Positions 5,416 to 10,460 of a stretch of 64,000 bases of DNA are shown one piece after another. Location of the stretch: NCBI RefSeq assembly GCF_029238675.1, contig NZ_JAQWFR010000005.1:1-64000 (forward strand), in the 5' to 3' direction. The position numbers and the translations under genes are program-made. Source of the stretch: Oceanicoccus sp. Lineage in GTDB: Bacteria > Pseudomonadota > Gammaproteobacteria > Pseudomonadales > Dasaniaceae. The notes under the pieces were generated by a model. It was not told the origin of the DNA. It saw only the letters and a program-made list of their open reading frames with translations, and did not search any database. The first letter of the stretch is position 1. Each line of letters starts with the position of its first letter.

Positions 5416-5892
5416 TCATCCAAATTCAGCAACAAGGCATTGCCGCCTGTCGCCACGATATTGGTGGTGATGGTTTTTTCTACAGCAAAGCGCAGAGTCT
5501 TGCGCGGTGTCTGGACACCAGTGATCACTGGCGGATCGCTCACCAACAAAAAGGGATGGTGATGCCCTTAATTGAGTATCCTTTCTCATGGTAGAAAGGA
5601 TGATATTCACCGTTGATAATAAATTTTGTGCGTAGGCTACTGCCATCCTTTTTGATAGAGTCTGCTGTCGTAAATGATCACCGTATTTGGCTACCGTATC
5701 CTTTTTGATATCCCGTGCATCTTTTATGTTGCACTCGGATTTCAAAAAATCGGCAAAGACTTTCCAGCGCCATTCATGGGACGCCTTTGTGCCATAGTGG
5801 CCGTCACCATAACGATCATTGAGCGCGTTCTTGGCAGCCCAAGTTATTTTTTTACCGTATCCAAAATTTCTTCCGCCACCGACTTTGCTCAT
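5416..5892 (-). pseudogene. truncated phage-type integrase (N-terminal SAM-like domain only), followed out of frame by a PutA-like C-terminal remnant
   Basis: MSKVGGGRNFGYGKKITWAAKNALNDRYGDGHYGTKASHEWRWKVFADFLKSE resembles integrase N-terminal domains; homology appears to end near FVGERS and no catalytic domain follows. Confidence 0.65.
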
Positions 5893-6169
5893 GGTGTAAC
5901 CCTGATTGTGGTTAGTATTACAATCGAATAGAGCGTCGACCGCGCTTGATGAATGCGTTTCATCAGACGACTTCCCGAGGGAAGCAAGAGCAAATCACTG
6001 TCAGTACAACTCACTTCAAAACAAGCTATAAATAGTACTTGCGGGTTAAGTGTGCTCAAAAGAAAACAACATAAAACGATTCTTCTTTCGAACTGTACAG
6101 GCAGTTTGTAGCAGTTTTTGGCGACCAACCCGATCACAAAACATTGATTGGATTAGTTTTTTCCGTGTC

Positions 6170-6832
6170 GCCGACAGGCGTCTCTGTGTAGCTTCGCTAA
6201 AGCAGAGACACCTGCTCCTTACCTTCTGATCTTCTTTCTTTGGGGTTTCACCTCCTTAGGCGTGAGTGATTAACGTTAAATGAATGTTGGCCATTAGTAG
6301 CCTGGCCAACCATAATGGAATTACTCCACAACGGTAGTTGCTGACGCATGCCCCTTAGGGTGAATTTCATTGCGTCTGTTCTGCCCCACTTTCATGGGTC
6401 AAGTTGTTGAGTGCTATTGCTAGCCATCAACGGGTGCCGTTAAGGGTGTAACGGCTACACTTCTATACCGCTTATTGAATACGAATACTTTGCCGACTAC
6501 GACAAAGAATCGTTCAATAGGGAAAGAACGTTATAACCACCTGACAGGCTCAAACAATCTGAGAGGCAAGGTGGTGTGAATAGGCCAATGACAGCAAGTG
6601 CCAATGGACTGATGATATGAACTTGGCCGCTGATAACAGTAGCTGTTCATTATTAAAAAGGATGAGCTATCGCCCATGTAACGGTAACTAAGTACTCGTT
6701 TACGACTAAGTCTGTAGTCGTTGCAGATCATTCGGAGGCATTACAACATAGAGGGTAACTTGCAAGCAGCGAAAAACCATACACACAAAAAAGATAGCTT
6801 TTTAAGAAGACTCGTTGCTAGCGAGTTTTTTT
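6170..6832 (+). ncRNA. candidate large structured non-coding RNA (boundaries approximate)
   Basis: No convincing ORF. Stems: 6180-6186/6203-6209, 6286-6292/6304-6310, 6343-6348/6371-6376, 6436-6441/6450-6455, composite 6473-6519, 6536-6542/6569-6575, 6583-6588/6623-6628, 6702-6708/6715-6721. Ends in hairpin plus T-tract at 6810-6832. Confidence 0.6.
6810..6832 (+). terminator. intrinsic terminator at the 3' end of the candidate ncRNA
   Basis: ACTCGTT-gct-AGCGAGT hairpin followed by a run of T (6826-6832). Confidence 0.65.
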
Positions 6833-6914
6833 GGGGGGAGCATCGTTACCAGTGGCAACAGGTATAGACCTCGCTGAAAGAAAGTTCACACACTTAACCG
6901 ACTTTTCCATGGCT

Positions 6915-6957
6915 CCCCTCTTTCGTTGTAGAGCTAAGCTCTACAACGAAAGAGGGG
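6915..6957. repeat. 43-bp near-perfect palindrome, 21-bp arms with a 1-nt centre
   Basis: CCCCTCTTTCGTTGTAGAGCT-a-AGCTCTACAACGAAAGAGGGG. Confidence 0.95.
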
Positions 6958-7003
6958 GTGGGTTTAAATTAAGTAACGGCTAAGAAGGTGAAACGATACG
7001 CGC

Positions 7004-7913: not shown

Positions 7914-8020
7914 AAAGATAAAGCAGTGAATAGACAAGGCGAACAAACTTAGGCAAAGTAACGCAGACAAGAGGTTGACAAGGAGTCAACCTTGACTTAG
8001 TGTTGACACACAGGCAACTT

Positions 8021-8338
8021 ATGCACGTTTTATCCAAAAAGCCGTTTAACGATGCGGCCAAGAAATACCCCAACGACCGATTGGCGTTAATGGAGATGTA
8101 CCGAGTACTGAGCAGTACCCAGTTCAAAACGCCAAAGGAATTAAGAGCCGTTTTTCCGTCGCTCGATAATTTCAAATACAACGACCGTTGGTGGGTGCTG
8201 GATGTAGGGGGGAATAACCTGCGGGTGATGGCCTTTATCCAGTTTGTGAATGGGCGTATTTATATTAAACACATTGTGAACCACGCTGATTACGACAAGC
8301 TAACCGAGAAGTACCGTAGAGAAAGTAAAAAGAGGTGA
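8021..8338 (+). CDS. higB: type II toxin HigB (mRNA interferase)
   Basis: MHVLSKKPFNDAAKKYPNDRLALMEMYRVL...FPSLDNFKYNDRWWVLDVGGNNLRVMAFI matches E. coli HigB-type sequence; ATG at 8021 preferred over 8000. Confidence 0.92.
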   Translation: MHVLSKKPFNDAAKKYPNDRLALMEMYRVLSSTQFKTPKELRAVFPSLDNFKYNDRWWVLDVGGNNLRVMAFIQFVNGRIYIKHIVNHADYDKLTEKYRRESKKR

Positions 8339-8339
8339 T

Positions 8340-8777
8340 GTGATGACACAGTTAGCACTAACTGATGCTTATGAAGCATTTATGCAAACCGCGCACGCTT
8401 ATGTAAACCTGTCTACTGAGGCAGATTATGAGGCCGCCTTAGAAGCTTTGGAAGCTACGCTGGAATCTGCTGAGGATACACCTAACGATCCGCTGAACCC
8501 TCTGATTGAGTTGTTGAGCCAATCTATTGAAACCTATGAATCTCAAAACAGTGAGTTAACGGCATTCGTTGATGAAGCCATGTCGATGCCAACGGATATT
8601 GCCCTATTGAAAACCCTAATGAGGCAATACAATCTCACCGGCAGTGATTTTCCTGAAATTGGTGACAAGACTATGGTGTCAAAAGTACTTAACGGAAAGC
8701 GAGTTTTACAACGACAATCCATGGAACAACTAGGGCAACGGTTTGGTATTCGGCCTGCTATGTTCTTGGGTGGGTGA
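8340..8777 (+). CDS. higA: HigA-family antitoxin
   Basis: 145 aa; MRQYNLTGSDFPEIGDKTMVSKVLNGKRVLQRQSMEQLGQRFGIRPAMFL, HigA C-terminal HTH; immediately downstream of higB. Confidence 0.92.
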   Translation: MMTQLALTDAYEAFMQTAHAYVNLSTEADYEAALEALEATLESAEDTPNDPLNPLIELLSQSIETYESQNSELTAFVDEAMSMPTDIALLKTLMRQYNLTGSDFPEIGDKTMVSKVLNGKRVLQRQSMEQLGQRFGIRPAMFLGG

Positions 8778-10384: not shown

Positions 10385-10460
10385 TGGTGGAGCTAAGCGG
10401 GATCGAACCGCTGACCTCAACACTGCCAGTGTTGCGCTCTCCCAGCTGAGCTATAGCCCC
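10385..10460 (-). tRNA. tRNA-Ala (anticodon GGC)
   Basis: GGGGCTATAGCTCAGCTGGGAGAGCGCAACACTGGCAGTGTTGAGGTCAGCGGTTCGATCCCGCTTAGCTCCACCA; CCA encoded; loop CTGGCAG. Confidence 0.95.

Follow-up and report, generated by a model that had tools for sequence, protein, structure and literature searches.

A predicted structured leader RNA on the minus strand before a truncated integrase gene in an Oceanicoccus island

The integrase gene and the non-coding stretch before it

The DNA analysed here (the window) is a stretch of 64,000 nucleotides from Oceanicoccus sp. (contig NZ_JAQWFR010000005.1), which carries on its minus strand an open reading frame for a truncated integrase of the Integrase_1 type (5416-5892), with 54% identity to the intact integrase of the genome G001. 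Residues 1-120 of this frame (5533-5892) are integrase, and the rest is unrelated. The intact G001 protein matches the Pfam family PF12835 (Integrase_1), as do seven of the eight family members that were aligned. An earlier note on this DNA had drawn attention to a non-coding region at 6170-6832, and in a second genome of the same genus (G006) this entire stretch is present with 83% identity, next to an integrase remnant of about 16 residues, versus about 120 in the window. In both genomes the stretch immediately precedes the 5' end of the integrase gene, which reads from the opposite strand. Six other genomes with relatives have a non-coding leader of 0.6-0.9 kb directly before a recombinase gene of the Integrase_1 family (PF12835), the leader measuring about 0.6 kb in G001 and about 0.9 kb in the window. 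The sample consisted of 80 genome loci of this integrase, the close relative in G247 and eleven viral contigs; an alignment of all the integrases was too divergent to be used for scanning.

The hairpin stems listed in the earlier note do occur at the coordinates given for them or close by, and relatives exist whose substitutions keep the stems. The ORF check gave no credible reading frame in 6170-6832, and the frames around the conserved hairpin differ between the loci of the relatives. A coding region was also considered and rejected, since the frames at this hairpin vary by locus and a 102-aa ORF of G001 is not conserved. The region has no Rfam match at gathering score, and a search of 5900-7000 at E<=10 returned only sub-threshold chance matches, nearly all of them to microRNA models on a palindrome. 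As the stems are present, no frame is conserved and Rfam holds no match, the original description of a large structured RNA was right, and a large and ornate structured non-coding RNA within a mobile element is supported. Among phages the only nucleotide homolog was a single chance-like match of 33 nt, and among plasmids there was none. From these comparisons we interpret the region as a predicted minus-strand structured 5' leader of about 0.9 kb, from roughly 6800 to 5893, of the truncated PF12835-type integrase gene, which would encode a tyrosine recombinase of a mobile element.

The window also contains a HigB-type toxin gene and its partner (8000-8777), with matches to components A and B of PD-Lambda-2 in PADLOC. 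Another integrase gene, different from the first and of phage type (9125-10339), adjoins a tRNA-Ala gene (10385-10460), so that two recombinase systems are found in one island. On the left side of the island, a search for a duplicate of the tRNA-Ala end found no 13-bp repeat.

The conserved 3' domain and its strand

The part of the RNA with the best support is a 3' domain at 5897-6050 on the minus strand, which falls outside the extent of 6170-6832 proposed earlier. It was identified with a covariance model (R1) built from five sequences, those of G001, L023, L024, G247 (L114) and L025, with the window left out; a wider model (R2) includes the window, and the E-values of both models are rough. 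Over the 64 kb, R1 gave this match alone, with 58.9 bits (E=2.1e-13), and R2 scores the same domain at 63.1 bits. When R1 was run over 80 sources (1.28 Mb) it produced 73 matches, at most one per locus, all of them in the sense of the integrase and immediately before its operon, and most of the Pseudomonas operon leaders were matched. In a class-wide draw, R1 matched the window's own genome alone.

Searching 384 genomes of the order with R2, irrespective of integrases, yielded nine matches, every one before an integrase or its operon. Six are known loci (the window, G006, G001, G247 and two in G210); as for the other three, at one the integrase is intact, at another it breaks off after about 38 codons and an hsdM-type gene follows, and at the third the first gene of the operon is broken. 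The leader is thus retained before a broken gene in four of the nine (the window, L007 of G006, L171 of G154 and L173 of G291), the broken gene being the integrase in the window, in G006 and in contig 49 of G154, and the first operon gene in G291. Some divergent PF12835 integrases had no R2 match in the DNA fetched, showing that the leader does not accompany the whole Pfam family.

The leaders have in common, between a GTCTC hairpin and the start of the gene, the hairpins H1 (6022-6041), H2 (5970-5985) and H3 (5947-5965) and an H-type pseudoknot, pkZ (5922-5946), which in the window are all on the minus strand. pkZ stands about 30 nt upstream of the start codon and is succeeded by TAACACTCA or a near variant. 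Two-sided changes among the relatives support four hairpins, of which H1 is the weakest, and pkZ. pkZ has one geometry throughout, with changed letters on either side, and both of its stems covary. Stem S1, AGCG:CGCT in the window, also occurs as AGCA:TGCT and AGGG:CCCT, and in Pseudomonas as AGGT:GCCT, AGGC:GCCT and AGGT:ACCT; stem S2, GGTCGA:TCGATT in the window, is found elsewhere as GACCGG:CCGGTT, GACCAG:CTGGTT and GACCGC:GCGGTT. The domain is closed by a helix, P0, whose 5' strand is TAACCC (6043-6048, minus strand) and whose 3' strand is GGGTTA (5897-5902), covering the likely Shine-Dalgarno sequence. P0 pairs AACCC with GGGTT in the window's group, and likewise in G210, and CCCGCC with GGCGGG in Pseudomonas, where it is located away from the Shine-Dalgarno sequence, at a greater distance upstream of the start codon.

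With five genomes in a plain MAFFT alignment, the share of cells that pair is 91.5%, against 30-43% for slid partners, and 11 pairs show a two-sided change, compared with 3.2 in shuffles (0 of 500 shuffles). Among 72 distinct R1 rows, in an alignment that leans to the model, two-sided changes are seen in 20 of 22 pairs. The 3' domain is common to the leaders of dozens of Pseudomonas integrases; it is previously undescribed and corresponds to no Rfam 15 family.

The strand assignment rests on three lines of evidence that agree, namely the R1 match, an excess of G-U pairs and better folding, from which we conclude that the predicted RNA reads from the minus strand. When eight helices were read as minus in up to eleven sequences, the cells without a Watson-Crick pair were 20 G-U versus 3 A-C; this count is a guide and not a proof, because the helix arms were chosen by eye with G-U accepted. 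Relative to dinucleotide shuffles (20 in each case), the folding of 6170-6832 has a z of -3.8 on the plus strand and of -6.0 on the minus strand, and the minus strand of 5893-6832 reaches -7.4. The "one consistent orientation (+)" of the earlier note was therefore not borne out: the stems can be drawn on both strands, and what distinguishes the strands favours minus.

The 5' part of the leader and the known RNA families

The GTCTC/GAGAC hairpin, HG (6175-6214, minus strand), is conserved in nearly all leaders. Upstream of it, the 5' part of the window's leader (6215-6832, minus strand) could be aligned over its full length with G006 only. It contains at 6248-6257 (minus strand) the sequence AAGGAGGTGA, a full match to the Shine-Dalgarno consensus with no conserved ORF behind it; the similar GGAGGTGA/GGAGATGA is found in G006, G001, G247, L023 and L024, and each of the five relatives in the window's group retains this long anti-Shine-Dalgarno match in mid-leader. 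Two further pseudoknots occur on the minus strand of the 5' part. pkB (6436-6460; GTGT:ACAC and GCCGTT:AACGGC) has the geometry of pkZ and is present in the window and G006 only. pkA (6702-6726) shows a compensatory change in G006 and G247, and the pair at the inner end of its S1 is broken in the window and intact in the relatives. Neither a conserved promoter nor a transcription start could be identified.

At the far end of the leader lies a near-perfect palindrome of 43 bp (6915-6957), and G006, G001 and G247 have palindromes resembling it in the corresponding position, as does contig 28 of the window's own genome. Long near-perfect palindromes of unrelated sequence are likewise seen at the far end of the leader in L013 (8708-8752) and in the Pseudomonas leaders, in the latter about 850 bp upstream of the integrase, and these palindromes adjoin an AlpA-like gene where one exists. 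In G001, G247 and contig 28 this gene, named by eye, is found beyond the palindrome and reads away from the leader. In contig 28 (locus L005, 1334-1612) the 5' end of the leader occurs a second time, as a partial copy that also carries the palindrome and the AlpA-like gene, with a 26-bp stretch repeated in inverted order around the palindrome.

In Pseudomonas the place of the 5' part is occupied by radC, a candidate RNA motif published in 2010 (Weinberg et al. 2010, PMC2864571), for whose function we found no later work in the literature. The Rfam radC motif is upstream of the GTCTC hairpin, on the integrase strand, in all seven Pseudomonas loci scanned for it (L016, L029, L037, L040, L072, L098 and L121), and it is also present at both G154 loci. 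The radC model (RF01754; gathering score 40 bits) has no match in the window, including 5900-7000 at E<=10, nor in the genomes of the genus, nor in G001, G247, L023, L024 and L025. The context of the window's RNA is like that of radC, in that it sits in the leader of a mobile-element gene acting on DNA, the integrase. Both are proteobacterial leaders on the integrase strand, and Rfam classes radC as Cis-reg; however, the 3' domain is downstream of radC, outside its model. Since the radC model was run on the window and gave no match, we do not claim membership in that family.

A second likeness is to STAXI (RF01728), a repeated pseudoknot near XerDC-type integrases (PMC2864571), between which and the integrase the EFASI motif is located (PMC2864571, PMC12370729). 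The window leader also repeats pseudoknots of one geometry (pkA, pkB and pkZ) near an integrase, but these are spread out and not in tandem, and they have no UUCG loop. The STAXI model had no match in 5900-7000 at E<=10 and none over its cut-off in the genomes of the genus. A search of viral contigs with a published primer retrieved no STAXI locus, and the Salmonella locus had no close match in E. coli. With no enterobacterial STAXI locus retrieved, the link to STAXI remains a lead.

The comparison with GOLLD and ROOL made from the first reading did not hold up, the nearest described motifs being radC and, by architecture only, STAXI. GOLLD, ROOL, HEARO, OLE and the group I and II introns are similar in size and in mobile-element context, whereas the window's RNA is attached to a gene and reaches its start codon, and none of their Rfam models matches the window. 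The leader belongs with a known kind, the integrase-associated candidate RNAs, together with radC and, in architecture, STAXI; the RNA of the window itself has no match among known motifs.

Possible function of the leader

The leader would be transcribed within the integrase mRNA and act in cis, and we consider it probable that it controls expression of the integrase. The position of the leader, the proximity of pkZ to the start codon and the placing of P0 over the Shine-Dalgarno sequence suggest that such control may be translational. In the window's group an invariant AACCC would pair with the GGGTT overlapping the Shine-Dalgarno sequence and close the 3' domain; because of this overlap, the folded leader would hold translation of the integrase down until something unfolds it. 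This occlusion step is a tentative proposal for the window's group. In Pseudomonas, where P0 is further from the start codon, control would have to be different or indirect; many Pseudomonas loci have an operon that begins with a yfjI-type gene, before which the leader is placed, at a distance of about 1.8 kb from the integrase.

A stretch at the far 5' end of the window's leader (6887-6899) can form 11 bp with 6044-6054, a strand whose other partner is the Shine-Dalgarno region. The perfect complementarity of this alternative long-range pairing extends over 11 nt in the window and 10 nt in G006 (0 of 300 shuffles), the homologous pairing in G006 being longer with one G-U, and it is absent from the five other leaders examined. 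One could imagine from this a mobile-element RNA switch that toggles translation of the integrase, of which radC, and perhaps STAXI and EFASI, would be local forms in a wider class, a generalization that we regard as speculative and rather improbable.

The integrase is broken in this genome, and the leader is therefore probably a fossil here. Its survival beside a broken integrase or operon could also mean that it has a role apart from the integrase, as an independent RNA in the integrase sense that acts in trans or protects the element, the adjacent gene being merely its usual neighbour. The leaders kept despite a broken integrase in the window, in G006 and in contig 49 of G154, and despite a broken first operon gene in G291, are in keeping with such a role, which nevertheless seems unlikely to us, given that every match is strictly just upstream of the integrase operon, that no conserved terminator is seen between the RNA and the gene, and that the broken copies may simply be recent.

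The structure might instead function at the DNA level, as a single strand or as a site such as an attachment site, recombinase arm sites or a replication origin, an option raised for STAXI by Weinberg et al. (PMC2864571). The leaders are indeed those of recombinase genes, S2 of pkZ forms an inverted repeat with an 8-nt spacer like a recombinase core site, and a long palindrome stands at the far end. A simple inverted repeat, however, needs no covariation of the kind that S1 of pkZ also displays, the wobble pairs are of the G-U type on one strand, and pkZ is, in many Pseudomonas loci, 1.8 kb from the integrase and just before the first operon gene, all of which makes a DNA site quite unlikely. 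The candidacy of pkZ as an attachment core was rejected, since integrated chromosomal copies have element sequence on both sides of it, so that it is not the crossover point.

Least probable is the free-standing plus-strand RNA of about 650 nt that the earlier note had proposed, for although the ACTCGTT/AGCGAGT hairpin with seven Ts does exist on the plus strand (6810-6832) and the plus strand also folds better than its shuffles, the hairpin sits in an insertion that G006 lacks, outside the conserved RNA, and was not listed by a terminator scan, and the strand evidence given above, with the model matching minus in the window and the integrase sense at all loci, points the other way. The hairpin is present but not supported as the transcript's own terminator, and in place of a transcript ending there we propose a minus-strand leader that reaches the start codon of the integrase.

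The interpretation of this region as an integrase leader places radC within the 5' part of a larger leader, which has a 3' domain with a covarying pseudoknot. This 3' domain is common to a widespread integrase family, in Pseudomonas, the Spongiibacteraceae and relatives. Studies of how integration is controlled in these islands can thereby start from a definite gene, strand and set of base pairs, and the covariance model detects such islands from the RNA alone, including those in which the integrase is broken.
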